A stretch of 64,000 nucleotides of DNA from Flavobacteriaceae bacterium (lineage in GTDB: Bacteria > Bacteroidota > Bacteroidia > Flavobacteriales > Flavobacteriaceae): positions 1 to 64,000 of the forward strand of contig CANGFO010000005.1 of assembly GCA_947453195.1 (NCBI GenBank), given 5' to 3'. This document shows, piece after piece, positions 1 to 17,992 of this stretch. The first letter of the stretch is position 1. Each line of letters begins with the position of its first letter. The notes beneath the pieces are model-generated. The model did not search any database. It saw only the letters and a list, made by a program, of their open reading frames with translations, and was not told the DNA's origin. A program made the translations under genes and the position numbers.

Positions 1-1440
1 AATTTCTGTATATAGTGATGCGTATACAACCAATGTTGGAACTAATTACAACCCATTCTGGGGACAATCTGGTTCAGTGAATACAACTTACAGCCCAACT
101 GGTTCTGGAAGTAATTATGCAATGGCATATACAAACTTCAATTATCAAGGTACTGAAACTAGTACTCAAAATGCTGCTTCAATGGACTATGTTCACATTG
201 ATGTTTGGACTGCTAATGCTACGGTATTAAAATTCTCTCCAATTAACAATGGTACTGGTGCTGCTGAATTTTTGGTTAATGTACCATTAGTAAATGCTGG
301 ATGGAGTAGTGTTGATTTGCCTAAAAGTGCCTTTGTAGGTATGAATTGGGATTCCATTATCCAAATTAAATTTGATTGTCAAGCTGGAGTTTCACCTTCT
401 ACTATTTATTTGGATAACATCTATTTCTGGAAAACTTCTTCGCTTCCATTAACTGCACCAAATACAAATGCTCCAACACCTACTCATGCTTCTGCAGATG
501 TAATTTCTGTATATAGTGATGCGTATACAACCAATGTTGGAACTAATTACAACCCATTCTGGGGACAATCTGGTTCAGTGAATACAACTTACAGCCCAAC
601 TGGTTCTGGAAGTAATTATGCAATGGCATATACTAACTTCAATTATCAAGGTACTGAAACTAGTACTCAAAATGCTGCTTCAATGGACTATGTTCACATT
701 GATGTTTGGACTGCTAATGCTACAGTTTTAAAATTTTCACCTATTAACAATGGAACTGGAGCTGCTGAATATCTTGTAGATGTACCACTTGTTACTGGTG
801 GATGGAGTAGTGTTGATTTACCAAAAAGTGCCTTTGTAGGTATGAACTGGGATTCTATTATTCAAATTAAATTTGATGGTCAAGCAGGAGTTTCTCCTTC
901 CACCATTTATTTAGATAACATTTATTTCTGGAAAACTGCTTCACTTCCATTAACTGCACCGATCACTAATGCACCAACACCAACTCACGCTCAAGTAGAT
1001 GTAATTTCTATTTATAGTGATGCATACACTAATATAGCTACTGATTATAATCCAAACTGGGGACAATCAGGTTCTGTAAATACAACTTACAGCCCAACGG
1101 GTTCTGGAAGTAATTATGCTTTGGCCTATACTAACTTCAATTATCAAGGTACTTATATGCCGCAAACCAATGCGGTAAATATGGAGTACTTACATATTGA
1201 TATTTGGACTTCAACTGCAACTTCTGTTAAAGTGTCTCCAATTAATAATGGTACTGGTGTTGGAGAATACTTAGTAAATATCCCATTAGTAAATAGCGGA
1301 TGGAGTAGTGTGGATATCCCAAAAAGTGACTTTGTTGGAATGACATGGGATTCCGTATTTCAATTAAAATTAGACGGACAATCAGGTGTTTCTCCTTCTA
1401 CAATTTATTTAGATAATATCTATTTCTGGAAAACGGCTGC
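1..1440 (+). repeat. Three tandem in-frame repeats, period 501 bp (167 aa)
   Basis: aatttctgtatatagtgatgcg at 1 and 502 and aatttctatttatagtgatgca at 1003; each unit ends in STIYLDNIYFWKT. Confidence 0.93.
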
Positions 1441-2476
1441 ACCAACTGGAACCCCAACAATTGGAAACTTTATTGTTCCAGCTAAAAATACTGGTGATGC
1501 ACCATTTGTATTAACAGATCCAACAAGTAATAGTTCAGGTGCTTTTTCTTATTCAAGTAGCAATTTAGCTGTAGCAACTATTTCTGGAAACGTGGTAACG
1601 GTTGTAGGTCCTGGGGTATCTATTATTACAGCAACACAAGCGGCGGCTGCTCCTTATATTTCAGGAAGTGTTACTGCAAACTTAGTGGTTACTCAGGTGC
1701 CTTTAGTAGCTGCACCAACACCACCAGCAAGAAACTCTTGGGATGTTATATCTTTATTCAGTAATGCTTATTCTGATATTACTATTTCTGACTGGGCTGC
1801 TGGTTTAGGATGGGGAGGATTAGCACCAATTACTGATCTTCAAATTGCAGGAAATGATACTAAGAAAATTGCTTTTGGTAATTTTATTGGAGTTGATTTT
1901 GGAGCAGGTCATCATATTGATGCTACGAATATGACAGATTTCCATATGGATTTTTGGATTCCTAGTGCAACTGATTTAGTTGGAAAAGTATTGAATCCTA
2001 AATTCTCAGCTTGGACTTCAGATACTTCTGGAGAAACTTCTAGTTTCTTATTAACTTACCTTCCTTCAGTAAATGGAACTTGGGCTTCAATTGACGCACC
2101 AATATCTACATTCACTTCAGGTAACAGTAATCCAAATATTAGAAATAACGTTGCTCAATTTTTAGTTTCATCTAATTTAGGAACTATTTATGTAGATAAT
2201 ATCTATTTATACAGAGCACCTACTGCTACTACGGATACATTCAATACTTCTAATGTGAGATTATATCCTAATCCAACTTCAACTAGTTTAACTATTGAGG
2301 CTAAGGAAGCTATCGAAAGTATTGCAATCTATAATGTTTTAGGTCAACAAGTTATTAGTAAAAATCCAATGTCAAATACGATGACTATGGATGTTTCTAA
2401 TCTTGAAAATGGGCTTTATTTTGTAAATAGCACAATAGATGGTAAAACATCAACAACAAAATTCATTAAAAATTAA
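1..2476 (+). CDS. T9SS-sorted multi-modular surface protein (5' truncated): three tandem 167-aa modules, Big-like domain, divergent fourth module, type A sorting domain
   Basis: Frame is open from base 2 (ISVYSDAYT...). Modules start at about 1, 502 and 1003 (501-bp period). C-terminus VRLYPNPTSTSLTIEAKE...LENGLYFVNSTIDGKTSTTKFIKN is a typical T9SS CTD. Confidence 0.85.
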   Translation, partial: ISVYSDAYTTNVGTNYNPFWGQSGSVNTTYSPTGSGSNYAMAYTNFNYQGTETSTQNAASMDYVHIDVWTANATVLKFSPINNGTGAAEFLVNVPLVNAGWSSVDLPKSAFVGMNWDSIIQIKFDCQAGVSPSTIYLDNIYFWKTSSLPLTAPNTNAPTPTHASADVISVYSDAYTTNVGTNYNPFWGQSGSVNTTYSPTGSGSNYAMAYTNFNYQGTETSTQNAASMDYVHIDVWTANATVLKFSPINNGTGAAEYLVDVPLVTGGWSSVDLPKSAFVGMNWDSIIQIKFDGQAGVSPSTIYLDNIYFWKTASLPLTAPITNAPTPTHAQVDVISIYSDAYTNIATDYNPNWGQSGSVNTTYSPTGSGSNYALAYTNFNYQGTYMPQTNAVNMEYLHIDIWTSTATSVKVSPINNGTGVGEYLVNIPLVNSGWSSVDIPKSDFVGMTWDSVFQLKLDGQSGVSPSTIYLDNIYFWKTAAPTGTPTIGNFIVPAKNTGDAPFVLTDPTSNSSGAFSYSSSNLAVATISGNVVTVVGPGVSIITATQAAAAPYISGSVTANLVVTQVPLVAAPTPPARNSWDVISLFSNAYSDITISDWAAGLGWGGLAPITDLQIAGNDTKKIAFGNFIGVDFGAGHHIDATNMTDFHMDFWIPSATDLVGKVLNPKFSAWTSDTSGETSSFLLTYLPSVNGTWASIDAPISTFTSGNSNPNIRNNVAQFLVSSNLGTIYVDNIYLYRAPTATTDTFNTSNVRLYPNPTSTSLTIEAKEAIESIAIYNVLGQQVISKNPMSNTMTMDVSNLENGLYFVNSTIDGKTSTTKFIKN

Positions 2477-2602: not shown

Positions 2603-5422
2603 ATGCCCAAAATATTTTGTTTTAGAAAAGTATCCTTTCTTATTTTATTAATTTCATTTTTTGGATTTTCGCAAGAATTACCCCCAATTGTAAAATTCAA
2701 TCCGGTAACTTATAATGCCGGAAATCAAAACTGGATGGTTTCTCAAGATAAAAACCACCTCCTTTATTTTGCAAATAATGAAGGCTTATTAGAATATAAT
2801 GGTACTTCTTGGACTCTATATAAATCTCCAAATGAAACAATCATTAGATCTGTAAAAGCAATTGATGATTTGTTATATACTGGAAGTTACATGGAATTTG
2901 GGTATTGGAAAAGAGGCTCTAATGGAAGATTGAGTTATGTTTCATTAAGCAAGAGCATTAAAAATAAAATTATCGATGACGAACAATTTTGGAATATTGT
3001 AAACTTTGACAAATATGTTATTTTCCAATCCTTAAATAGAATTTATATTTATGATTTGGAGGCTAAAAAATTTAATATAATTACTCCAAAAAATAGTATC
3101 ACTAAGGTATTTAAAACCGAAAATGCAATTTATTTTCAAGTTTTTAATGAAGGATTGTTTGAAATCGAAAATGGTAGAAGCAAATTGGTTTCTAATGATA
3201 TTGCTTTTAAGAATAATAAAATTGTAAATGTATTTTCAGAAATAAACGGATTAATTATTCATACTCAAACTAATGGTTTTTATAAATTAACTAATTCTGT
3301 TGTTTCAAAATATAATACTTCTGCTGATTCCGAATTAATTCATGCGAGTAGTTACAGTAGTTGCCAATTACGAAATGGAAATTTTGCAATAGGTACAATT
3401 TCAGATGGAATTTATATTGTTTCAAAATCAGGAAAGCTAGATTATCATATTTCGCAAACCAATGGTTTGAGCAATAATACGGTTCTTTCATTATTTGAAG
3501 ATTACGATAAAAATTTATGGATTGGCCTTGATAATGGAATAAATTGTATCAATCTTCAATCTCCAATTAAAAGTTTTTTAGATGAATCAGGTAAATTAGG
3601 AACAGTATACGCCTCTGTTTTATATCAGGGTATTCTTTATGTAGGGACTAATCAGGGATTGTTTTATAAGTCAAATAATAGTTCTGATACCTTCCAGCTT
3701 GTGAGTGGTACAAAAGGTCAGGTTTGGTCTTTATTTGTATATCAAGGAACACTTTTTTGCGGCCACGATTCGGGTACTTTTGTTATAAATGGCGCTGCAG
3801 CCAAATGTATTTTTAATCAATCTGGAACTTGGAAGTTTCAAAGCATTTCAAATACTAATTTATTGCTTCAAGGAAATTATTATGGAATTTCAGTTTTGCA
3901 AAAAACCAATAATCAATGGGTTTTTAGGAATAAAATTACTGGCTTTGATTACTCATCAAAATACTTTGAATTAAATTCAAAAAATGAAATTTATGTGAGC
4001 CATGAGTACAAAGGAATATTTAAGTTTACTATAGGAAAAGACTTTTCTAAAGCTTTTAAAGTAGTAAAATTAACAGCCCCAACAAAAGGTAAAAACGCAA
4101 GTTTGATTAAATATAATAACGCAATATATTATGCTTATAAAGAGGGCGTTTTCAAGTTAAATGATTCTAAAAATGTTTTTGAAAAAGATGTCATATTAAG
4201 TAAAGTATTTACAAATGACGAGTTTACTTCGGGTAAAATGATTGTAGATCAATCAAATAAAATATGGTTCTTTTCTAAGCATTACATCTATTATTTTTAT
4301 AGAAATAAATTCAACTATGAACTGAAGCAAAACGCTATTCCTATTCCTTCTAAGTTTACTAATGCACTAACGGGGTATGAGAATATTACTCAACTTAACG
4401 ATTATAGTTATTTAATTGGAACAACAGATGGATATAATACCATAAACATCAATGACCTTAGTTTTAAAAATTATAAGGTTTTTATTTCTTCAGTTAGTGT
4501 CAATAAACTAAATGAAAAATCGAGTTACTTTTCTATTAATGATGAAGTTGAGTTAAAGCATGATGAAAACAATATCACAATTAACTTTTCGGTAGCACAA
4601 TTTAATAAATATATAGCTGCTGAATACCAATACAAATTAGAAGGTTTTCAAGATAATTGGAGCCAATGGAGTAATAAACCATCGGTTAATTTCAAAAATT
4701 TATCATCAGGGGAATATAAATTCGTTGTTAGATCAAAAATTGCAAATACCACTTTAGAAAACACTGCTGTTTATAATTTTACAATATTAAAACCTTGGTA
4801 TTTTACAAATTTAGCGCTGTTTGTTTATTTAATAGGATTGATATATCTCGGCTATTGGATTAATAAAAGATATCAAAATTACTACCACCAGCAAAGAGCA
4901 AAACTTATTGAAGAAAACAATTTACTTTTAGAAATAAAAGAATTAGAAAACGAGCAACAATTAATGAAGCTTCGCAATGATCAATTGTCTATGGATGTTG
5001 ACGCCAAGAACAAAGAGTTGGCCGTTTCTACAATGAGTCTTATTAAAAAAGATGAACTTCTCTCGCTTATTAAAGAAGACTTGAAGAAAACAGCCGATGA
5101 AGAAAATAAAAACACTAGCATAAAATCGGTGATTACTACAATCACAAAAAACATAAATAACGAAGATTCCTGGAATGTTTTTAAAGATGCCTTTGATACT
5201 GTAGATAAAGACTTTTTGAAAAAACTTAAAAGCATGCATCAATCACTTACTCCTAATGATCTGAGACTTTGTGCCTATTTAAGATTGAATCTTTCTTCTA
5301 AAGAAATAGCACCTTTACTTAATATTTCTGTTCGAAGTGTAGAGATAAAGCGATATCGTTTGCGTAAAAAGATGAATTTGAGCCACGAAAACGGTTTAGC
5401 TGAGTATATTTTGTCTATTTAA
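2603..5422 (+). CDS. SusR-like transmembrane regulator: beta-propeller (Reg_prop), Y_Y_Y domain, TM helix, coiled coil, LuxR-type HTH; no histidine kinase
   Basis: LFEDYDKNLWIGLDNGINCINL propeller repeat; YKLEGFQDNWSQWS...GEYKFVVRSK Y_Y_Y; TM WYFTNLALFVYLIGLIYLGYWI; C-terminal SSKEIAPLLNISVRSVEIKRYRLRKKMNL HTH. Confidence 0.85.
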   Translation: MPKIFCFRKVSFLILLISFFGFSQELPPIVKFNPVTYNAGNQNWMVSQDKNHLLYFANNEGLLEYNGTSWTLYKSPNETIIRSVKAIDDLLYTGSYMEFGYWKRGSNGRLSYVSLSKSIKNKIIDDEQFWNIVNFDKYVIFQSLNRIYIYDLEAKKFNIITPKNSITKVFKTENAIYFQVFNEGLFEIENGRSKLVSNDIAFKNNKIVNVFSEINGLIIHTQTNGFYKLTNSVVSKYNTSADSELIHASSYSSCQLRNGNFAIGTISDGIYIVSKSGKLDYHISQTNGLSNNTVLSLFEDYDKNLWIGLDNGINCINLQSPIKSFLDESGKLGTVYASVLYQGILYVGTNQGLFYKSNNSSDTFQLVSGTKGQVWSLFVYQGTLFCGHDSGTFVINGAAAKCIFNQSGTWKFQSISNTNLLLQGNYYGISVLQKTNNQWVFRNKITGFDYSSKYFELNSKNEIYVSHEYKGIFKFTIGKDFSKAFKVVKLTAPTKGKNASLIKYNNAIYYAYKEGVFKLNDSKNVFEKDVILSKVFTNDEFTSGKMIVDQSNKIWFFSKHYIYYFYRNKFNYELKQNAIPIPSKFTNALTGYENITQLNDYSYLIGTTDGYNTININDLSFKNYKVFISSVSVNKLNEKSSYFSINDEVELKHDENNITINFSVAQFNKYIAAEYQYKLEGFQDNWSQWSNKPSVNFKNLSSGEYKFVVRSKIANTTLENTAVYNFTILKPWYFTNLALFVYLIGLIYLGYWINKRYQNYYHQQRAKLIEENNLLLEIKELENEQQLMKLRNDQLSMDVDAKNKELAVSTMSLIKKDELLSLIKEDLKKTADEENKNTSIKSVITTITKNINNEDSWNVFKDAFDTVDKDFLKKLKSMHQSLTPNDLRLCAYLRLNLSSKEIAPLLNISVRSVEIKRYRLRKKMNLSHENGLAEYILSI

Positions 5423-5749: not shown

Positions 5750-8700
5750 ATGAAAAAAATTATTTTTTTACTTACGCTTTTTATTTACTCCTCTGCTATT
5801 TATTCTCAAGCAGATAGAGTAGAGGTAGAAAAGAGTAATTCAGGATTTAAATTGAAAGTCAACGGAAATGACTTTATTATTAATGGAATGAATTGGGATT
5901 ATTACCCAATTGGAACTAACTATTCTTATAGTTTGTGGAAACAATCTGATGAAGTAATCAAGGCAGCCTTAGATACTGAGATGGGCTTGTTGAAAAATAT
6001 GGGAGTTAATACCATTAGACAATATACCGGAATTCAGCCTAAATGGATTACATATATCTATCAAAAATATGGAATATATACCGTAATAAATCATTCTTTT
6101 GGTAGATACGGACTGACCTTAAATGGAACCTGGGTTCCTAATACAGATTATTCCAATTCGCTTACTCAAGAAATGTTGCTTAAAGAAACTAAAGAGTTGG
6201 TGGCGGAATATAAAAACACTCCTGGGTTGTTATTGTTTCTTTTAGGAAATGAAAACAATTATGGTTTGTTTTGGGATGGAGCAGAATCTGAAAATATTCC
6301 GATGGAAGATAGAAAATCTACGGTAAGAGCTAAAGTAATGTATAAATTATTTAATGATGCAGCTCTAGGAATGAAAAAAATAGATACGACTCACCCAATA
6401 GCTATTTGTAATGGTGACTTACTGTTTTTAGATATTATTGCTAAAGAATGTAAAGACATCGATGTAATTGGAACAAACATGTACCGTGGTGTTTCATTTA
6501 CAGATGCTTTTCAAAAAGTGAAAGAAAAAATCGACAGACCATTAATGTTTACTGAGTTTGGAGCCGATTCATTTAATACTATCGACAATGCTGAAGATCA
6601 AAAATCACAAGCGTATTATTTAGTAAATAACTGGAAAGAAATTTATGAAAATGCTGCCGGAATGGGTAAAACAGGAATTTCTATTGGAGGGTTTACCTTT
6701 CAATTTAGCGATGGATGGTGGAAATTCGGACAAACAAAGAACCTAGATATTCACGATAACAATGCATCATGGTCTAATGGGGGGTATCAATCGGATTTTC
6801 AAAATGGGGAAAACAACATGAATGAAGAATGGTTTGGTATATGTGCAAAAGGACCAACTAATTCAAGAGGATTATATAATTTATATCCACGTGCTGCTTA
6901 TTATGCATTAAAAGAAGCCCACAATATTAATCCATACGAAATTGGAACAACTGCCGAAAGCATTGAAAAATATTTTGGTAAAATCCAATTAATGGATGCA
7001 GTATTAAAAGCAAGAGGAGACAAAGCGGCATTAGGTTCAAACGATACCGATATGTTAAAAGTGAGCAACCTAAGAGCTGAGTTTACAACATTCAATACTG
7101 GAGGAAGTTTAATTACAACTCCAAAAACGGCAGATCCAACTTCAACATCTTATCCTAATAAATTAGGTTTTGATCACATGCAATCCTACTATGTAGGTGT
7201 AGAAGGTAATCCAGCACCAAACATGAAAGCCAATGTAAATGTAAATATATTGGGTCATGTTGCAGAAAATCCAATAAATGAAATTTTCTACGAAAACAGA
7301 GGTAGAACTCAAAATGTAAAAATTGAAAACGGAGTAGTTACTCAAAGTGATGTTAATCGAGTTCAAATTTATAACGCATCCTACACATGGAACGAAAAAT
7401 ATTTTGATTTAAAAGGTTTTTATAGAACTGGTCATTACCATTGGGGATATGAAGGCGATTTCTTTGGGTTGTATCCAGAAGCAAATTACGGTCCAAATTT
7501 AGACCTATATAATGGAGAAACATCTGGTTTTGAATTTGAAGGAAAAAAAGGAATAGAAGGTCTTAAAGGTGCATTTGGTCCTCAATTATGGTGGGGAGCC
7601 AACCCAGCTTATTTATTGAAGTACAGTAGAAAAATTGGAAAAATAGATGCCACTGCGGTGTATCATGAAGATATTGCAGATGCTAATGCAGCAACAACTT
7701 CAATCGCTATACCACTACCTAAAACAAGAAGAGCGACTGTTTATTTTAAATCAAAAATTGGTAATTTAGGTTTAGAAGTTGGAGGTATTTGGGCAGGTCA
7801 ACCATTAAACGGAAGAGTTTTTCAATATGCAAAAGAATTGGACGGGGTTTACACTACGTATGATGATAAAATAACAGGAAAAGACAATTGGGGAGGTAAA
7901 GCAAAAATTACCTATAGAAACGGTCGTTTTAATATGTACACCCAAGGGGCTATTATGGGACTTGTTGCCAACGGTGGTGCAGATAACACAAAAACATTCA
8001 CAGGTTGGAAACTTAAAGATAGCGGAAGCGGAAATCAAACCAACTTCTTAGCTGGATTTACTTACAATATTGGAAACCTACAAATTGCACCAAACTTTTT
8101 ATGGCAAAAACCATTAGTTGGTGCTATGCCAAATGATATTAATGCGCCAGGAAGACTAAGAAACATTCAATCGGATCCATTCGTTGTTAGATCAAATCGC
8201 GAAACATTAGGAGGTGAGTTATTACTTACTTACGATCCAACGCCAGCAACTTGGTATTACGAATGGGATAATGATGTTGCAGAAGATGCAAAATTTGCCA
8301 TCAATGCTGATTTTGTTTTCCGTCATTTGCCAACCACTCAAGATGCTGCTATTGGTTTCTTAGTAAATCGTACCGCATTTGCTTTTCCAAATTCAACACC
8401 AGCGCACGATTTATGGGAAGTAAATTCAAGAATTGTATCCAAATTAACTCCCGATTTAGGCTTTATTACCAATATTTATTTTGGTAATACACAAGCAAAC
8501 GGAAGTAATTCAAGACTTATTGAAAGAATTGGTGGTGACGTTCGATTAATTTACAGAAAAGTAAAAGTAGTTACCTCGCTTAAATTGAATGACTGGGGAC
8601 CATATGATTACCACCGTGATTTTAACTTAACCTATCCTACACAGTTTTCATTAGATTTATCTACTTCTGTAGGAAAACCAAATTGGTTTATATTACCAAA

Positions 8701-8875
8701 TACTAAAATTGGAATCATGGGAACTTGGAGATCTTTAGATCAATATTCACCACGATTTTCACCAAATCAAACGGCAACATTATATGCAACACAGCCTATT
8801 ATAAGTCCAGTTGGATTTAATAACGGTTCAGAATGGGAAATTAGAACTTACGTTCATATCAACATCGGAAAATAA
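5750..8875 (+). CDS. Clan GH-A-like TIM-barrel glycosidase fused to a putative outer-membrane beta-barrel
   Basis: ATG at 5750 (track used TTG 5717). Signal peptide MKKIIFLLTLFIYSSAIYSQ; LLGNENNYGL (putative acid/base) and LMFTEFGAD (putative nucleophile); C-terminal ~580 aa of alternating aromatic/polar strands ending WEIRTYVHINIGK. Confidence 0.75.
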   Translation: MKKIIFLLTLFIYSSAIYSQADRVEVEKSNSGFKLKVNGNDFIINGMNWDYYPIGTNYSYSLWKQSDEVIKAALDTEMGLLKNMGVNTIRQYTGIQPKWITYIYQKYGIYTVINHSFGRYGLTLNGTWVPNTDYSNSLTQEMLLKETKELVAEYKNTPGLLLFLLGNENNYGLFWDGAESENIPMEDRKSTVRAKVMYKLFNDAALGMKKIDTTHPIAICNGDLLFLDIIAKECKDIDVIGTNMYRGVSFTDAFQKVKEKIDRPLMFTEFGADSFNTIDNAEDQKSQAYYLVNNWKEIYENAAGMGKTGISIGGFTFQFSDGWWKFGQTKNLDIHDNNASWSNGGYQSDFQNGENNMNEEWFGICAKGPTNSRGLYNLYPRAAYYALKEAHNINPYEIGTTAESIEKYFGKIQLMDAVLKARGDKAALGSNDTDMLKVSNLRAEFTTFNTGGSLITTPKTADPTSTSYPNKLGFDHMQSYYVGVEGNPAPNMKANVNVNILGHVAENPINEIFYENRGRTQNVKIENGVVTQSDVNRVQIYNASYTWNEKYFDLKGFYRTGHYHWGYEGDFFGLYPEANYGPNLDLYNGETSGFEFEGKKGIEGLKGAFGPQLWWGANPAYLLKYSRKIGKIDATAVYHEDIADANAATTSIAIPLPKTRRATVYFKSKIGNLGLEVGGIWAGQPLNGRVFQYAKELDGVYTTYDDKITGKDNWGGKAKITYRNGRFNMYTQGAIMGLVANGGADNTKTFTGWKLKDSGSGNQTNFLAGFTYNIGNLQIAPNFLWQKPLVGAMPNDINAPGRLRNIQSDPFVVRSNRETLGGELLLTYDPTPATWYYEWDNDVAEDAKFAINADFVFRHLPTTQDAAIGFLVNRTAFAFPNSTPAHDLWEVNSRIVSKLTPDLGFITNIYFGNTQANGSNSRLIERIGGDVRLIYRKVKVVTSLKLNDWGPYDYHRDFNLTYPTQFSLDLSTSVGKPNWFILPNTKIGIMGTWRSLDQYSPRFSPNQTATLYATQPIISPVGFNNGSEWEIRTYVHINIGK

Positions 8876-8894: not shown

Positions 8895-10304
8895 ATGAAA
8901 AATATAAAAATCAATACAATGAAAAATTCGTTCTTATTAGCTGTTATTTTGCTGATGAATGTGAGTTGCGAAAGAAATTTATCGGATGATGCAACACTTT
9001 CTACATTTTCTAAAAATGCCGATGTATTTATTGATACATTCAGTGCTGGATTAGGATACGGAGCTTTTGGTGGTACAGATTATACCGCCTTTACAGTAGA
9101 TACCGATGTGAAATATCAAGGAACTGCTTCCATGAGATTTGATGTGCCAAGTGTAGGTGATCCTAGCGGAGCATATGCAGGTGGAGCATTTATTGATGGT
9201 TCAGGTCGTAATTTAACTGATTATGATGCGTTAACTTTTTGGGTTAAAGGATCTCAAGCGGCAACTATAAATGAAGTTGGTTTTGGAACCGATTTTGGAT
9301 TGAATAAATATAATGTTAGAATGCAAAATGTTCCCATTGATACCAATTGGAAAAAGATAATTATTCCACTTCCAGATGCTTCAAAATTACTTCAAGAAAA
9401 AGGAATGTTTTGGTATTCAGAAGGTGCTGAAAATAATTTAGGATATACTTTCTGGATTGATAATGTTAAGTATGAAAAGCTAGGAACACTTGCGCATCCA
9501 CAACCAAAAATCATGGATGGAGCTGATTCAGTTCAGCAAACGTATATTGGTGCAAATATTACTATGACAGGACTTACCGATACTTTCAACATGCCAAACG
9601 GTTTCAATCAAACAATTTCAATAGCACCAAGTTATTATACCTATACTTCTTCTAATCCAAGTGTTGCAACAGTTAGTGAATCAGGAGTTGTGTCGGTATT
9701 GTCTGGAGGAACCACAGTAATTACAGCTACTTTAGCAGGAACTAATGCACAAGGATCTTTAACAATTAATTCTCTTGGAGTATTTGTACCTGCACCAACA
9801 CCAACAGTAAACCCTGCAAATGTTTTATCTATTTTTTGTAATGCCTATACCAATGTTCCAGTTGAATATTATAACGGATATTGGGCTCCTTATCAAACAA
9901 CATTAGGGCAAGCAGATATTCATATTAATGGTGATGATTTAATTAAATATTCTCAATTTAACTTTGTTGGAATTCAATTTTCTCAGCCAACTATTAATGC
10001 GAGTCAAATGACTTATGTGCATGTTGATTTAAAAGTACTTAATACTACTGGAGCAAGAAATTCTATTAAATTGAAACTTGTTGATTTTGGTTCGGATGGC
10101 ATCTATGGAGGAGTGGGAGATAGCTCTCATGAATATACATTTAATAGTGCTGCATTACCAACAGGTAACTGGGTAAGCGTAGAACTTCCTCTTTCAGCTT
10201 TCACAGGATTAACCAGTAAAGCACATTTAGCCCAATTTATATTAGGACCAACTACATCTGGAATAACAGATTTACTTGTTGATAATGTTTATTTCCATAA
10301 TTAA
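8895..10304 (+). CDS. Lipoprotein: galactose-binding-like/CIA30-like domain, Big_2-like domain and SDAYT-type module
   Basis: ATG at 8895 after the preceding stop (track start 8811 overlaps it); lipobox LLMNVSC; SSNPSVATVSESGVVSVLSGGTTVITATLAG; PAPTPTVNPANVLSIFCNAYT like the 1..2476 protein. Confidence 0.75.
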   Translation: MKNIKINTMKNSFLLAVILLMNVSCERNLSDDATLSTFSKNADVFIDTFSAGLGYGAFGGTDYTAFTVDTDVKYQGTASMRFDVPSVGDPSGAYAGGAFIDGSGRNLTDYDALTFWVKGSQAATINEVGFGTDFGLNKYNVRMQNVPIDTNWKKIIIPLPDASKLLQEKGMFWYSEGAENNLGYTFWIDNVKYEKLGTLAHPQPKIMDGADSVQQTYIGANITMTGLTDTFNMPNGFNQTISIAPSYYTYTSSNPSVATVSESGVVSVLSGGTTVITATLAGTNAQGSLTINSLGVFVPAPTPTVNPANVLSIFCNAYTNVPVEYYNGYWAPYQTTLGQADIHINGDDLIKYSQFNFVGIQFSQPTINASQMTYVHVDLKVLNTTGARNSIKLKLVDFGSDGIYGGVGDSSHEYTFNSAALPTGNWVSVELPLSAFTGLTSKAHLAQFILGPTTSGITDLLVDNVYFHN

Positions 10305-10336: not shown

Positions 10337-11143
10337 ATGATATTAAATATAAAAAATACTCTACTTGCAAGTTCTTTAGTACTTGTTTTAGGTTGTTCTA
10401 CAGATGAAAAACAAACTGTGACTACTATGACGCAATTGGTAAAACAAGATGAGTTTAATGTAGACGGTGCTCCAGATAGTTCTATGTGGACGTATGACAT
10501 TGGAACGGGTTCTAATGGATGGGGAAATAGTGAGCTAGAATATTATACCAATAGACCTCAAAACATTAAAGTTGAAGGGGGTGTATTGAAAATAACTGCC
10601 AACAAAGAAACGTATATGAGTTCTGCATATACATCAGGTAGAATTACATCTAAAAATAAATTCGAACAAAAACACGGACGTTTTGAAGCACGTATTAAAA
10701 TGCCTTGGGGAAAAGGGATTTGGCCAGCATTCTGGTTGTTAGGAGCAAACTCAAGCACGGTCTCATGGCCACAATGTGGTGAAATTGACATCATGGAATA
10801 TTTAGGAAACAATCCAACAACTGTGTTTGGTTCACTTCACGGTCCGGGGTATGCAGGAGCGAATTCATTAACTAAAACGTTCAGTTTAACAAACGATCGT
10901 TTCGATACCGATTTCCATATTTTTGGAATTGAATGGGGAGAAGATTATATTAATTACTACGTTGATAATGTACTTTATAATCAAATTACACCAGCCAATG
11001 CTCCAGGGGATTGGGTTTTCAATCAGCCATTTTATATTATTCTGAATCTTGCTGTGGGAGGTAATCTGCCGGGTTCACCTAATAGTGATACTGTTTTCCC
11101 GCAAACTATGCAGGTTGATTACGTAAGAGTATATCAGAAATAG
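10337..11143 (+). CDS. GH16 endo-beta-1,3-glucanase (laminarinase-like) lipoprotein
   Basis: Lipobox LVLVLGCS; catalytic motif GEIDIMEYLG; GRFEARIKMPWGKGIWPAFWLLG. Confidence 0.92.
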   Translation: MILNIKNTLLASSLVLVLGCSTDEKQTVTTMTQLVKQDEFNVDGAPDSSMWTYDIGTGSNGWGNSELEYYTNRPQNIKVEGGVLKITANKETYMSSAYTSGRITSKNKFEQKHGRFEARIKMPWGKGIWPAFWLLGANSSTVSWPQCGEIDIMEYLGNNPTTVFGSLHGPGYAGANSLTKTFSLTNDRFDTDFHIFGIEWGEDYINYYVDNVLYNQITPANAPGDWVFNQPFYIILNLAVGGNLPGSPNSDTVFPQTMQVDYVRVYQK

Positions 11144-11243: not shown

Positions 11244-14200
11244 ATGAATCAAAGCTTTAATGCCTTAGAGGAAAACGATTTGAAAAATAGTCCTAAAACT
11301 GTTTCTATGGAAACAGCAGTAATTGATGGAGAAAAATTTTATAAAATCGCTAACAATGATGTAATGCGTCCTTTTTTTATGAGTATTGTTAGCGACTCAA
11401 ATCATTGGATGTTTATCTCTAGTAATGGCGGACTTACGGCAGGTAGAAAAAATTCTGAATTTGCTTTATTCCCCTACTATACGGATGATAAAATCACCGA
11501 ATCGGCAGATATCACAGGAAGTAAAACTATTTTTCAAATTGATCTTGATAGGAAATTAGTAGTTTGGGAACCCTTTTCAGAACGTTATACAGATCAGTAT
11601 GTCATTACCCGAAATATATATAAAAACTTCTATGGTAATAAAATCATTTTTGAAGAAATAAACCACGATTTACAACTAACTTTCAGGTACCACTGGAATT
11701 CAAGTAACAAATATGGTTTTGTAAAAAAATCAGAAATATACAATCACTCCGATAAAGAGTATAAAATTTCTGTATTGGACGGACTTCAAAATATTATGCC
11801 TTATGGAGTAAATACCGATTTGCAAGCCACCACCAGTAATCTTGTGGATGCGTATAAAAGAAGTGAATTGCATGTAAATTCTGGGCTAGGAATTTTTGCT
11901 TTAAGCGCCATCATCGTTGATAAAGCAGAGCCTAGCGAAGCACTAAAAGCAAATAGTGTTTGGTCTTTAGGATTAGAAAATCCAACATATTTAGTTTCTT
12001 CATTACAGCTTTCAAACTTTAGAAAAAAGCAAAAAGTAACTTCTGAAAATGATATCAAAGGTGAAAAAGGAGCTTACTTTATAAATTCAGATTTAGTCTT
12101 AAATTCCAATTCTAAGAAAGAATGGATGTTTGTTGCCAATGTAAATCAAGATCATTCGGATATTGTTCAAACAATTGAAACGATTAAAACGAATAAGAAC
12201 ATTGAAAGTGTAGTAAAAGCAGATGTTGAATTAGGAACCAAAAAATTAATTGAAATTAATGCTTCTTCTGATGGGCTTCAAGCAACTGCAGATCATTTAA
12301 GAGATACCAGACATTTTTCGAATACCCTATTTAATATAATGCGTGGCGGAATATTTGATTTTAATTATCAAATAGAAAAGGCCGATTTTATAGGTTATTT
12401 GAAAAAAGCAAATACAGTTGTTTTTCAAAATTTTGAAAAAGAAATAAATCAGCTTCCGGAATTATTTTCGTTACAAGCTTTAAAAGAATTTGCTGCAAAG
12501 CAAAATAATATTGATCTTCTTAGGTTAGCATCAGAATATTTACCGCTTAAATTCAGCAGAAGACACGGAGATCCAAGTCGTCCTTGGAATAAATTTTCTA
12601 TCAATACACAAAGTGAAATTGACGGTTCTAAAATATTAGATTACCAAGGAAACTGGCGTGATATTTTTCAAAACTGGGAAGCATTAGCGCATTCCTATCC
12701 TGATTTTATGGACAGTATGATTCATAAATTCTTGAATGCCTCAACTTTTGATGGGTATAATCCGTATCGCGTAACCAAAGATGGTTTTGATTGGGAAACC
12801 ATCGAGCCTGATAATCCATGGTCCTACATTGGGTATTGGGGAGATCACCAAATTATCTATCTATTAAAATTCCTTGAATTCATAGATAAACACGAGCCAA
12901 ATAAATTGGATTCGTATTTTGAAAATGAATGTTTTGTATATGCAGCCGTTCCATATACCATAAAACCGTATGAGGCTATTTTGAAAAATCCAAAGGATAC
13001 TGTTGGATATAATCACGAATGGGAAAAACTAATCAATCAAAGAAAACAAGCTATAGGCGCCGATGGTGCTTTGTTAAATAGTAATGATAAAGAAATTTAT
13101 CATGTGAATTTCATTGAGAAGATACTAGCGACTGTCTTGTCTAAAATGTCAAATTTCATTCCGGAAGGTGGTATTTGGATGAATACCCAACGGCCAGAAT
13201 GGAATGATGCCAACAATGCCTTAGTCGGTAATGGAGTTTCCATGGTGACGCTATATTATTTAAGACGATTTTTGAAATTCTTCCAACAAATTTTAGAGAA
13301 TTCAAAATTAGAAAATATCAAAATCTCGAATGAAATGGTTGAGTTTTACCATGAGGTAAGAGAATGTTTAGTCGAAAATAAGCAGTTACTTTCAGGTAAG
13401 ATTGATGATGCTTCCCGTAGAATAATTATAGATCGTTTGGGTAAAGCGGCATCCGATTATCGTTTTCAAATTTATAATAGTGGTTTTTGGGGTAAAAAAA
13501 GAACCCATTCTATGACTGGTTTAAAAACATTTACCCAAGTGTGTTTGGATTTTATTGACCATTCTATTGAAGCAAATAAAAGACCTGATAATTTATTCCA
13601 CGCTTATAATTTAGTGACCATTAATAACGAAAAAGAGATGTCAATTTCTTATTTAAGCGAAATGCTTGAAGGTCAAGTTGCCGTTTTAAGCTCGGGTTAT
13701 TTAAGTTCAAAAGAGGCATTGGTAGTTTTAGATAGTTTAAAGTCTAGTAAATTATTTAGAGAAGATCAATACAGTTATTTACTGTATCCAAACAAAGAAT
13801 TGCCAAAATTCTTAGCTAAGAATACAATTCCAAAAGAGGCCGTTGCACAATCAGAGTTGCTTACTCAATTGGTTTCCAAAAAGAACCTGCAAGTAATTAA
13901 AATGGATTGTGATGGGAATTATCATTTTAATGGAAATTTCAACAATGCCAATGATTTAAAAGCAGCACTAGAGCAATTAAAAAATCAAGAAGAATTTAAA
14001 GCATTAGTTGAAAAAGAAACCAGTACTATAACCGAGATTTTCGAGCAAGTTTTTAATCATAAGGCCTTTACCGGAAGATCGGGAACATTCTACGGATATG
14101 AAGGTTTGGGATCCATTTATTGGCATATGGTTTCTAAACTGCAATTAGCAGTGCAAGAATGTTGTTTTGAAGCTCAAGAAGAAAAGGAATCTCCAGAAAT

Positions 14201-14720
14201 TATTGGTCGTTTATTAGAGCATTATTATGAAGTAAACGCCGGAATTGGTGTGCATAAATCGCCTGCTTTATATGGAGCTTTTCCTACCGATCCGTATTCG
14301 CATACGCCTGCTGGAAAAGGAGCCCAGCAGCCAGGAATGACCGGACAAGTGAAGGAAGATGTATTGAGTCGATTTGGAGAACTTGGAGTTTTTGTGAAAA
14401 AGGGTTGCCTTTATTTCGCCCCATTGTTATTGCGTAAAGAGGAATTTTTAGCGGAAGCCAAAACATTCCATTTCGTAGATGTATTTATGAAGCAAAAAAC
14501 AATTGAATTGCAAGAAGATTCACTTTGTTTTACCTATTGTCAAACTCCAATTGTATATAAAATTGGGAATTCAAATAGTATTGAAGTAGCCTATTCTAAT
14601 GGAACTGAAGCCATTTTTGATTCAAATAAAATAGATGTTCAAACAAGTCAAAAGTTGTTTTTAAGAACAGGTGAAATCATAAAAATAAAAGTAACTATTG
14701 ATAAAATAGTATTACGATAA
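11244..14720 (+). CDS. Beta-1,3-glucan phosphorylase, GH149-like (GH94-related), cytoplasmic
   Basis: 1158 aa, no signal peptide; RRHGDPSRPWNKFSI, YQGNWRDIFQNWEALAHSYP, RPEWNDANNALVGNG (Asp at 13206-13208 aligns with the GH94 catalytic Asp), HKSPALYGAFPTDPYSHTPAGKGAQQPGMTGQVKED; encoded with two GH16 genes. Confidence 0.75.
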   Translation: MNQSFNALEENDLKNSPKTVSMETAVIDGEKFYKIANNDVMRPFFMSIVSDSNHWMFISSNGGLTAGRKNSEFALFPYYTDDKITESADITGSKTIFQIDLDRKLVVWEPFSERYTDQYVITRNIYKNFYGNKIIFEEINHDLQLTFRYHWNSSNKYGFVKKSEIYNHSDKEYKISVLDGLQNIMPYGVNTDLQATTSNLVDAYKRSELHVNSGLGIFALSAIIVDKAEPSEALKANSVWSLGLENPTYLVSSLQLSNFRKKQKVTSENDIKGEKGAYFINSDLVLNSNSKKEWMFVANVNQDHSDIVQTIETIKTNKNIESVVKADVELGTKKLIEINASSDGLQATADHLRDTRHFSNTLFNIMRGGIFDFNYQIEKADFIGYLKKANTVVFQNFEKEINQLPELFSLQALKEFAAKQNNIDLLRLASEYLPLKFSRRHGDPSRPWNKFSINTQSEIDGSKILDYQGNWRDIFQNWEALAHSYPDFMDSMIHKFLNASTFDGYNPYRVTKDGFDWETIEPDNPWSYIGYWGDHQIIYLLKFLEFIDKHEPNKLDSYFENECFVYAAVPYTIKPYEAILKNPKDTVGYNHEWEKLINQRKQAIGADGALLNSNDKEIYHVNFIEKILATVLSKMSNFIPEGGIWMNTQRPEWNDANNALVGNGVSMVTLYYLRRFLKFFQQILENSKLENIKISNEMVEFYHEVRECLVENKQLLSGKIDDASRRIIIDRLGKAASDYRFQIYNSGFWGKKRTHSMTGLKTFTQVCLDFIDHSIEANKRPDNLFHAYNLVTINNEKEMSISYLSEMLEGQVAVLSSGYLSSKEALVVLDSLKSSKLFREDQYSYLLYPNKELPKFLAKNTIPKEAVAQSELLTQLVSKKNLQVIKMDCDGNYHFNGNFNNANDLKAALEQLKNQEEFKALVEKETSTITEIFEQVFNHKAFTGRSGTFYGYEGLGSIYWHMVSKLQLAVQECCFEAQEEKESPEIIGRLLEHYYEVNAGIGVHKSPALYGAFPTDPYSHTPAGKGAQQPGMTGQVKEDVLSRFGELGVFVKKGCLYFAPLLLRKEEFLAEAKTFHFVDVFMKQKTIELQEDSLCFTYCQTPIVYKIGNSNSIEVAYSNGTEAIFDSNKIDVQTSQKLFLRTGEIIKIKVTIDKIVLR

Positions 14721-14769
14721 TAAAAAGTTGAGTGTAAACTCAAAAAAATATAAATTAAAAACAGTAATT

Positions 14770-16242
14770 ATGTCAAATAACAGCTTCAACTCAAACGGAT
14801 CAGTTTCTATGGGTCAAAAGATTGCCTTTGGATTAGGAATGTTAGCTAATCAAATGTTTCCTGCTGCCCTAGGAATATTTATGGTTGTGTTGGTTCAGAA
14901 TTTAGGTTTTCCAGCTTGGATGTGGGGGATTTTGTTCTTTTTGCCACGAATTTTTGATGCCTTTATTGATCCTATTATGGGATTCATTTCTGATAATACT
15001 AGATCTAGATGGGGCAGAAGAAGACATTATGTTTTTATTGGTGCCATCATCATGGGGATTTCATTCGTATCTATGTGGCAATTATATAAAGAAAACGGAG
15101 TTCAATATAATTTTATTTTCTTCCTATTATGGTCGTTTGTTTTTTACTTAGGACTTACAATTTTTAGTGTACCTTATGTAGCAATGGGTTATGAAATGAG
15201 TGATGATTTTCATGAGCGCACAAGTATTATGGCAATCTCACAATGGATTGGTCAATGGGCTTGGGTAATTGCGCCATGGTTTTGGGTTATTATGTATGAT
15301 CCCAATTGGTTTCCAAATGCGCATGCCATAAATCCATTAAAGCCAGATGCAGATACCGCTTTAGCAACAAGAACTTTGGCAATTTGGGTTGGAGTAATTT
15401 GTATGCTTTTAGCAATGGTTCCTGCACTATTTATAAAAAGTAAATCAACTAAGGATGAAACAAGTTTTTCGCCCTTAACATTCAAAGCAATTGGTGGTAG
15501 TTTCAAAGAAATACTAAAAAGTTTCAAAGAAGCATTTAGCAATAAACCCTTTACAAAACTTTGTATATCTACTTTTTTAATTTTTAATGCATTCAATACA
15601 GTTGCGGGTTTTACTTTCTTTATTGTAGTGTATTATCTTTTTAATGGAAACACTGTAGATGCTGGAATTTGGCCTACTCTTTTTGGATGTGTTGGTGCCT
15701 TAGCGACTACTTTTATTGTAATTCCAATTGTTGCCTACATCTCAAAAAAAATGGGTAAAAAAGATGCCTTTTTGCTTTGTCAAGGAATTTCGGTTTTTGG
15801 CTATATTTTGCTTTGGTTTCTGTTTATACCAGGTAAACCCTACATGTTTTTATTTGCGCTACCATTTTTCTCTTTTGGAATTGGAAGTTTATTTACCCTA
15901 ATGATGTCTATGACCGCTGACGTTTGTGATATGGACGAGCTTACATCTGGTAAAAGAAGAGAAGGTATATTCGGTGCTATTTATTGGTGGATGGTTAAAT
16001 TTGGATTTGCAATAGCAGGGCTATTAACCGGAGTAATAATGTCGGCGGTAGGTTTTGATCCAAATGTGTCCGTTCAAGCTGATGGAGCTATTACTGGTTT
16101 ACGATTGTTTTTCTCTGGAATACCAATTTTAGGTACGTTAATTGCAATGTGGATTATGCGTAATTATGATTTAACCGAAGACAAGGCTAAAGAAATTAAA
16201 GAGCAATTAGTACTTGCTAGAGGAGAAAAATCTTCTAAATAA
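14770..16242 (+). CDS. GPH/MelB-type sugar:cation symporter
   Basis: FDAFIDPIMGFISDNTRSRWGRRRHYVFIG motif and about 12 TM segments; ATG at 14770. Confidence 0.85.
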   Translation: MSNNSFNSNGSVSMGQKIAFGLGMLANQMFPAALGIFMVVLVQNLGFPAWMWGILFFLPRIFDAFIDPIMGFISDNTRSRWGRRRHYVFIGAIIMGISFVSMWQLYKENGVQYNFIFFLLWSFVFYLGLTIFSVPYVAMGYEMSDDFHERTSIMAISQWIGQWAWVIAPWFWVIMYDPNWFPNAHAINPLKPDADTALATRTLAIWVGVICMLLAMVPALFIKSKSTKDETSFSPLTFKAIGGSFKEILKSFKEAFSNKPFTKLCISTFLIFNAFNTVAGFTFFIVVYYLFNGNTVDAGIWPTLFGCVGALATTFIVIPIVAYISKKMGKKDAFLLCQGISVFGYILLWFLFIPGKPYMFLFALPFFSFGIGSLFTLMMSMTADVCDMDELTSGKRREGIFGAIYWWMVKFGFAIAGLLTGVIMSAVGFDPNVSVQADGAITGLRLFFSGIPILGTLIAMWIMRNYDLTEDKAKEIKEQLVLARGEKSSK

Positions 16243-16288: not shown

Positions 16289-17992
16289 ATGAAAACTACA
16301 ACGCCATATAAATTGCTTTTATCATTTTTCCTGTTCTGCCAATTTGGATTAGCGCAGGTTGATGTAGTTTACTCCGATTTAGTTTGGTCGGATGAATTTA
16401 ATTCTAGTGGGCCTGTAGATTCAAATAAGTGGTTTCAACAAACCCAATTGCCTTCCGGCGGAAGTTGGTACAATGGGGAAGTTCAGCATTACACCAATCA
16501 ATTATCCAATTCATTTGTAAATGCAGGTTTGTTAAATATTGTGGCCAAAAAAGAACCTTATACAGATCAAGGCATCACGAAACAATATACTTCAGCACGA
16601 TTAAATTCGAAATTTGCCTTTAAATACGGGCGAATAGATGTGAGAGCTAAACTTCCTATCGATGCCGGAACTTGGCCTGCTATTTGGATGTTGGGAAAAA
16701 ACATCAATGAACCAGGAGGGTATTTTGCTTCAAGTTTTGGATCTGTTGATTGGCCTACTTGTGGTGAAATTGACATTATGGAACACGGAATTTTTCAAGG
16801 ACAATCCATAAATTACATTCAAAGCACCTTACATACTCCTTCTTCTTTTGGAGGTTCGGTTAATAATGGCGGGACAATTGCATCCGATCTGGCAAATAAT
16901 TATCATGTATATTCTTTAAATTGGTCGCCTTACCAATTAACATTTCTGTTAGACGGTGTGCCTTATTATACTTATAATCCTTCGGTAAAAAATGCAAGCA
17001 CATGGCCATTTGATTTGGAACAATATATTTTATTGAATGTTGCTTTAGGAGGTACAGCAGGTGATGTATCGAGCAATTATACACAATCTTCAATGATGGT
17101 TGACTATGTAAGAGTGTACCAAAATATAACTGTAGATACCCAACCACCGATGAATTTTACAGCTTCTGTTGGAACAGTTACCAGTACATCTATAGAGTTG
17201 TTACTAAATGCTACCGATAACTCGGGTGCAGTGGGATATAATGTAGCCTACGGTACCAACTCCAATGGTTGCGCAGGAACATCAGGGGTGCAAAAATCGG
17301 TTGTAATTTCTGGATTGAATCCAAATACTAGTTATAGTTTTTCAGTTACGGCAAATGATTTATCTGGAAATGTAGCAGCTAATAATCCAATTTTATTGAA
17401 TGCTACTACTTTGCCTAACTCAACTTTAATCTGTTCAGGAACGTCTAATTTAGCTCAAATAGGAAGTTTTTCTACAGGTTATAATTATGAATTTCAAACA
17501 AATGGTACCGATGTGAAAATTACTTACGGACTTTTAGATACCGATAAAGTTGGTGTTGTGGCCTTTTTGTGGAAACAAACTCCTTTTTCAGAAGTTCAAA
17601 TGACAAATGTCTCAGGAAATACTTTTACACATACCATCACCAATCAAACAATTGGCTCTACGATTAATTATGGGGTGAAATTTGCTTATGCCGGCGGAAT
17701 GTCCGTAACTAATTACTATTCCTATGTGGTTGGAAGTACCTGCTCAATGGGAGTAAGTAGCTTTTCAGAATTAAATCAACTTTCATTTCCAAATCCAGTT
17801 TCGGATAATATTTTCATTAATTCAAATGTTTCGATTGATAAGGTTGAAATTTATAACCTAATAGGTAATCTTGTGTTAAAACAAGAAGTTGACACGAAAC
17901 AAATAGATGTAACAAATTTACAATCTGGAATTTACCTTATTTCATTCTTTTCAGGCGAAGAAAAAATTGTCAGAAAGATAATTATTAAATAA
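16289..17992 (+). CDS. Secreted GH16 beta-glucanase with FN3 domain, an extra beta-sandwich-like domain and T9SS sorting domain
   Basis: GEIDIMEHGI; DTQPPMNFTASVGTVTSTSIELLLNATDNSG FN3; C-terminal NQLSFPNPVSDNIFINSN...LQSGIYLISFFSGEEKIVRKIIIK. Confidence 0.9.
   Translation: MKTTTPYKLLLSFFLFCQFGLAQVDVVYSDLVWSDEFNSSGPVDSNKWFQQTQLPSGGSWYNGEVQHYTNQLSNSFVNAGLLNIVAKKEPYTDQGITKQYTSARLNSKFAFKYGRIDVRAKLPIDAGTWPAIWMLGKNINEPGGYFASSFGSVDWPTCGEIDIMEHGIFQGQSINYIQSTLHTPSSFGGSVNNGGTIASDLANNYHVYSLNWSPYQLTFLLDGVPYYTYNPSVKNASTWPFDLEQYILLNVALGGTAGDVSSNYTQSSMMVDYVRVYQNITVDTQPPMNFTASVGTVTSTSIELLLNATDNSGAVGYNVAYGTNSNGCAGTSGVQKSVVISGLNPNTSYSFSVTANDLSGNVAANNPILLNATTLPNSTLICSGTSNLAQIGSFSTGYNYEFQTNGTDVKITYGLLDTDKVGVVAFLWKQTPFSEVQMTNVSGNTFTHTITNQTIGSTINYGVKFAYAGGMSVTNYYSYVVGSTCSMGVSSFSELNQLSFPNPVSDNIFINSNVSIDKVEIYNLIGNLVLKQEVDTKQIDVTNLQSGIYLISFFSGEEKIVRKIIIK

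Follow-up and report, generated by a model that had tools for sequence, protein, structure and literature searches.

A single open reading frame of a Flavobacteriaceae bacterium encodes a glycosidase joined to an outer-membrane β-barrel, and its product probably serves as an outer-membrane import device for β-1,3-glucan of the laminarin type; we put this reading at roughly 60%. The frame lies at 5750..8875 on the + strand of the window, by which we mean the whole stretch of 64,000 nucleotides that was analysed. Laminarin is among the largest marine carbon flows. To our knowledge, its uptake by Bacteroidota has been described almost wholly via SusC/SusD. The import reading is favoured because the four barrel losses with a readable locus all fall in loci that carry SusC/SusD, and those genomes also lack the full-length form of the lipoprotein encoded next to the fusion. 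If the reading is true, a 'GH2' annotation masks an importer that is at work in many flavobacteria and in other Bacteroidota, and PUL finders that require susCD therefore miss or misread such loci. With the fusion, one could also test in a simple way whether uptake through a pore that has no TonB-gated plug can be driven by hydrolysis at that pore.

Architecture and distribution of the fusion protein

The frame opens with ATG at 5750 and ends with a stop codon at 8875, encoding 1041 residues with no internal stop. Its layout, derived from the reading frame, its relatives and structural models, comprises four parts, all on the + strand. The signal peptide (MKKIIFLLTLFIYSSAIYSQ; 5750..5809, residues 1-20) has no lipobox; it was recognised by eye in the translation, and residues 2-18 are modelled as a helix. 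It is followed by a clan GH-A TIM-barrel glycosidase domain (5813..6934, residues 22-395), assigned from PF02836 and Foldseek matches to GH158, and by a helical linker (6935..7054, residues 396-435), which is delimited by the models and the conservation profile and shows the lowest conservation within the mature protein. The remaining part, about 605 residues with 24-26 predicted strands, is an outer-membrane β-barrel (7055..8869, residues 436-1040), identified by models, Foldseek and strand alternation. An AlphaFold2 model of the full fusion, built from an alignment of 76 homologues (mean pLDDT 74.9, pTM 0.61), shows the TIM barrel at about residues 24-390, helices at 402-428 and about 24-26 antiparallel strands at 436-1040.

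Relatives of the fusion numbered 568 in a tblastn search of GTDB contigs. The best 80 of these align at 64-92% identity across essentially the full length and include records from Flavobacteriaceae, Saprospiraceae, Chitinophagales, Cytophagales and Bacteroidales. Because it recurs at this identity in at least 80 genomes, the two-domain reading frame is not a product of chance. Judged by these matches, the fusion is a conserved Bacteroidota family, widespread but overlooked. The TIM domain has a match, mostly full length, in 93 of 301 genomes of the bacterium's own taxonomic family. The barrel used as a query on its own was present in 35 of 396 genomes of the phylum, and none of the 396 had a free-standing barrel; two matches were short or lay at split contigs. 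One record titled as a Bifidobacterium breve MAG (L061) has a Flavobacterium-like version of the locus and is a mislabelled or contaminated bin. In another relative (L169:6679-9827, genome G062) the fusion is spread over two overlapping frames, covering residues 5-280 and 281-1041, through a frameshift or a sequencing error.

Two trivial explanations of the reading frame were ruled out: an assembly artefact fusing two genes by the identical join in 80 genomes, and a pseudogene by the lack of stops together with strong conservation.

The N-terminal glycosidase domain

An earlier note on this DNA had read the chain up to about residue 400 as a GH-A-like TIM barrel with GNEN near 6245 and FTEFGAD near 6550. 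The motifs start at 6245 and 6548, and the fold is borne out by the AlphaFold2 model and by two kinds of search. The sole Pfam match of the fusion, PF02836 (the GH2 TIM barrel), covers residues 73-278 with 27.5 bits against a cut-off of 21. Of the GH2 architecture, only the TIM-barrel domain was recognised; the N-terminal sugar-binding and Ig-like sandwich domains gave no Pfam match, and about 20 residues separate the signal peptide from the TIM barrel. Foldseek against the PDB placed GH158 laminarinases at the top, namely 9oro (E 8.5e-14) and BuGH158 (6pal, E 9.8e-11). The domain has the GH-A fold, the N-E acid/base motif and the nucleophile glutamate of GH158, with a borderline sequence match (phmmer E 3e-4, profile E 0.018). 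No GH158-type C-terminal Ig-like domain follows the TIM barrel; in the model, the chain enters the helical linker and then the outer-membrane barrel.

The catalytic pair is intact. N167-E168 in the GNEN motif (6248..6253, +), the predicted acid/base after strand β4, aligns with the NE of GH158, and E269 in the FTEFG motif (6554..6556, +), the predicted nucleophile after strand β7, aligns with its TE(F/W)G. All three residues are invariant in the alignment of 76 homologues and correspond to N136, E137 and E220 of BuGH158, mutation of which abolishes activity (PMC7157763). The enzyme may hydrolyse or transglycosylate its substrate. Distant stand-alone TIM relatives of about 340 residues (L172:8419-9429; L173:7686-8705) share 29-37% identity with this half, are lipoprotein-like, adjoin GH149 and GPH symporter genes in small flavobacterial genomes and show weak matches to GH72 glucanosyltransferases.

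The C-terminal outer-membrane barrel

Residues beyond about 400 have no match in Pfam, NCBIfam or PHROGs, and neither phmmer with the barrel half nor a whole-family profile found a barrel among PDB sequences. The structural evidence is of another kind. Modelled alone, the barrel half has the same strands with better scores (pLDDT 78.9, pTM 0.74). Its best 50 Foldseek matches in the PDB are all outer-membrane barrels (best E 4e-10), with BtuB as the top single match and MOMP, PfeA, OpdQ, AlgE and LptD among the others. Model confidence is moderate, and TM-scores against known barrels reach just about 0.3-0.4; because these scores to single barrels are modest, the count of 24-26 strands is not firm. 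Along the modelled strands, hydrophobicity alternated between inward and outward positions more strongly than in 2000 of 2000 within-strand shuffles (z 5.1). The antiparallel amphipathic strands, their even number, the alternation of long and short turns and the fold matches are those of an outer-membrane β-barrel in general. The outer-membrane barrel that the earlier note had seen in this half thus holds up on models, fold matches and strand alternation. A soluble β-sandwich is not predicted, and fold matches and amphipathicity rule it out.

No match to the TonB plug family PF07715 and no TonB box were seen in the fusion protein. According to the models, a plugless barrel of 24-26 strands would be a very wide pore. 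It may be closed by the conserved loops, by the docked enzyme or the helical linker, or by the lipoprotein.

The barrel half is conserved nearly as strongly as the enzyme half (0.78 vs 0.81). The highest 20-residue block of the whole protein, at 0.96, is an aromatic and acidic loop predicted to be extracellular (GHYHWGYEGDFFGLYPEANY; 7430..7489, +, residues 561-580), and the predicted barrel loops match the active site in degree of conservation. Since loops of outer-membrane proteins usually vary, the conserved loops suggest a specific ligand.

The locus and its neighbours

The fusion gene sits between a regulator and a lipoprotein, as had been noted before. The regulator (2603..5422, +) combines propeller, Y_Y_Y and LuxR-type HTH domains in one protein (PF07494, PF07495, PF00196); in contrast to the hybrid two-component regulators known from gut PULs, it gave no match to a histidine kinase. 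Upstream of it, a gene at 77..2476 (+) encodes repeated carbohydrate-binding-like domains and a type IX secretion tail (PF18962), and the final domain of the lipoprotein matches it partially at four places. The window starts where its contig starts, and this gene is therefore incomplete at the contig edge. The surface-type lipoprotein (8919..10304, +; LLMNVSC-ERNLSDD) has CBM11-like and Big_2 domains by Pfam and no SusD family or fold match. It adjoins the fusion downstream in 80 of 80 barrel loci, so that the pairing is obligate there.

The genes that follow, all on the + strand, make this a β-1,3-glucan locus: a GH16 endo-β-glucanase that is a lipoprotein (10337..11143; LVLGC; PF00722, E 9e-29), a GH149 β-1,3-glucan phosphorylase (11244..14720; NF058639 of NCBIfam, 1810 bits against a cut-off of 1150), a GPH-type (MFS_2) sugar:cation symporter of the inner membrane (14728..16242; PF13347, E 5e-69) and a GH16 glucanase with a type IX secretion sorting domain (16289..17992; PF00722, PF18962). 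The order regulator, fusion, lipoprotein, GH16, GH149 is strongly conserved among relatives, often with the GPH symporter as well; the regulator usually lies directly upstream of the fusion, and the laminarin genes GH16 and GH149 usually come after the lipoprotein. Laminarin loci of Formosa and Muricauda have a similar gene order (PMC6246565, PMC13188888), and that of Formosa is induced by laminarin (PMC6246565). In several loci, GH149 is followed by a protein of about 425 residues with a signal-like N-terminus (L173:6393-7676; L175:3971-5245), and the one in L173 matches GH17 (PF00332).

This setting bears on the idea that the fusion exports or remodels a self-made glucan, as AlgE or PgaA/PgaB do. 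AlgE is among the barrel matches, GH149 phosphorylases are reversible, and the GH-A relatives include glucanosyltransferases, as in the weak GH72 matches above. However, no polysaccharide synthase was found among the families of the locus, the genes nearby encode surface GH16 enzymes and a symporter for uptake, and the similarly ordered Formosa and Muricauda loci are laminarin loci, in Formosa with induction by that glucan. Export is therefore very improbable, and import into the cell is preferred.

Apparent exchange of the barrel with SusC/SusD

The locus lacks the SusC/SusD pair of a canonical PUL. Neither a TonB-plug receptor nor a SusD was found on any part of the window's contig, in line with the earlier remark that SusC/D was not visible; that remark does not carry over to all relatives, because SusC and SusD are both present in 8 of the 20 barrel-bearing loci that extend 17 kb upstream (absent in 12). 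SusD genes number just two in this genome, both on other contigs. One stands beside an α-glucan set (LacI regulator, GH65-like and amylase-like genes) and the other has no recognised sugar enzymes around it, the flanking genes of both having been named by eye from N-terminal sequences. Both GH16 genes of the genome, its only ones, are in the fusion locus. The absence of a laminarin SusCD is judged here on a MAG of 94.7% completeness in which the contig starts just upstream of the locus.

Five relatives have the TIM domain without the barrel (G201, G178, G260, G413 and G955, the last from the window's own genus), and no barrel was found elsewhere in these five genomes. Their TIM domain is kept at 57-66% identity; most have a plain signal peptide without a lipobox, and none has a type IX tail. 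One of them (L165:7378-9435, 685 residues, G201) has the TIM domain fused to GH16 instead of the barrel, a second partner for the same enzyme.

In a tree of the TIM domain, the barrel-less proteins are scattered among the barrel-bearing ones, and the supported branches cannot be explained with fewer than four changes. Placement of all barrel-less proteins in one clade was rejected (AU p 2.6e-5), as was that of the three short-branched ones (p 2.1e-7). This scatter and this rejection make it probable that the fusion is ancestral and that its barrel was lost repeatedly and independently, at least four times.

These losses occur in loci that have SusCD. All four barrel-less relatives with a readable locus carry SusC and SusD there, compared with 8 of 20 barrel-bearing loci (one-sided Fisher p 0.047, a value that depends on four cases). 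In G955, SusCD lies between the regulator and the TIM gene, whereas its sister in the tree, L105, is without SusCD. None of the 5 barrel-less genomes has the full-length lipoprotein, which is present in 5 barrel-bearing controls as well as in the window. The simplest reading is that the barrel and the lipoprotein do the job of SusC and SusD and become dispensable once SusCD is present. The pattern of gene loss suggests that the fusion and its lipoprotein can stand in for a SusC/SusD importer on algal β-glucan such as laminarin. The two are not strictly interchangeable, because both are present in 8 of 20 relatives.

The regulator is retained where the barrel is lost and thus does not need the barrel. 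This argues against a barrel that is a sensor or an enzyme in its own right, binding glucan outside and signalling to the regulator or remodelling the chain without transport. The highly conserved aromatic and acidic loops and a regulator gene that is usually the next one upstream would fit such a role. However, no known enzyme barrel is among the best 50 fold matches, and we regard this alternative to import as quite improbable.

Membrane orientation and the proposed import mechanism

In the models, the barrel has an even number of strands, and turns of 2-3 residues alternate with loops of 5-36 residues. This topology would put both ends of the barrel, and the enzyme along with them, in the periplasm. 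The barrel-less forms would be periplasmic by default, because they have a signal peptide, plain in most, and no type IX tail. A periplasmic enzyme would act after glucan entry, and surface cutting would be left to the GH16 enzymes.

The opposite orientation belongs to surface display, in which the barrel is mainly an anchor and a secretion channel, as in autotransporters, and the enzyme, either threaded through the barrel or kept on its outer side, cuts β-glucan at the cell surface while other channels serve for import. The order of N-terminal passenger, helix and C-terminal barrel is that of autotransporters; the barrel-less protein of L165 joins the TIM domain to GH16, which is usually a surface enzyme; and BuGH158 works in a locus with surface lipoproteins (PMC7157763). 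However, the barrel has 24-26 strands in the models rather than 12 and matches no autotransporter family in Pfam. Moreover, predicted loops conserved like an active site would be needless for a mere anchor, the barrel-less forms would be periplasmic by default as set out above, and barrel loss tracks SusCD and the lipoprotein. Surface display is thus unlikely, though it is the strongest of the alternatives to import.

For the preferred import reading, the following pathway can be proposed. The surface GH16 enzymes would cut the polymer, and the lipoprotein, in the role that SusD has for SusC, would bind chains at the mouth of the barrel. Fragments would pass through the C-terminal barrel, and the N-terminal GH-A domain would cut or transglycosylate the arriving chain on the periplasmic side. 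The GPH symporter would then move oligosaccharides into the cytoplasm, where GH149 would phosphorolyse them. The earlier note had suggested that cutting is coupled to import. Such coupling is now the favoured inference because of the evolutionary swap with SusC/SusD, with one correction: the cutting by this enzyme would come after entry.

More tentatively, and with less confidence than in import as such, the system may be a second outer-membrane glycan importer of Bacteroidota, independent of SusCD and possibly of TonB. It would consist of a plugless barrel of 24-26 strands that bears a glycosidase where the pore opens to the periplasm and is capped by a lipoprotein; cutting of the chain would clear the pore and pull import. 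In these laminarin loci it would be ancestral and would have been replaced by SusCD several times.

Comparison with known systems

No glycosidase/outer-membrane-barrel fusion was found described in the open-access literature, and papers on such loci seem to label the fusion just 'GH2'. In the Muricauda laminarin locus, the corresponding gene is reported only as a GH2 β-glycosidase (PMC13188888). It is very probably the same gene, since the order LuxR-GH2-GH16-GH149 is that of the Muricauda locus L095. The term 'outer membrane' is absent from the text of that paper, so the barrel half went unremarked there. From the gene order of L079, our guess for the Formosa homologue is FORMB_24670.

The TIM half resembles GH158, as represented by BuGH158 (6pal) and GH158(Pro) (9oro), in its fold, in the N-E and E catalytic residues and in the GH16/β-1,3-glucan type of locus. 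It differs in its 13-14% identity in structural alignment with borderline sequence E-values, in the lack of the C-terminal Ig-like domain and in being joined to a barrel, whereas the barrel-less forms are soluble. Type Va autotransporters share with the fusion an N-terminal passenger enzyme, a helix and a C-terminal barrel, but their translocator has 12 strands, whereas the fusion has 24-26 in the models and no Pfam match in this part.

A laminarin locus of Formosa also encodes a glycosidase joined to a transport protein, FORMB_24740 (FbGH17B), an MFS transporter-GH17 fusion likewise proposed to couple transport and hydrolysis (PMC6246565). It belongs to the inner membrane and to GH17, whereas the fusion described here belongs to the outer membrane.

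Like SusC/SusD, the fusion and its lipoprotein combine an outer-membrane barrel with a surface lipoprotein encoded alongside, within a glycan locus that has a dedicated regulator, and the two systems swap at the same operon position. The fusion differs from SusC in having no plug domain, no TonB box that could be seen and a glycosidase of its own. The SusC barrel has 22 strands, compared with 24-26 in the moderate-confidence models of the fusion, whose best single fold match is BtuB. As a possible counterpart of SusD, the fusion has an adjacent lipoprotein in all 80 barrel loci, but one that gave no SusD family match.
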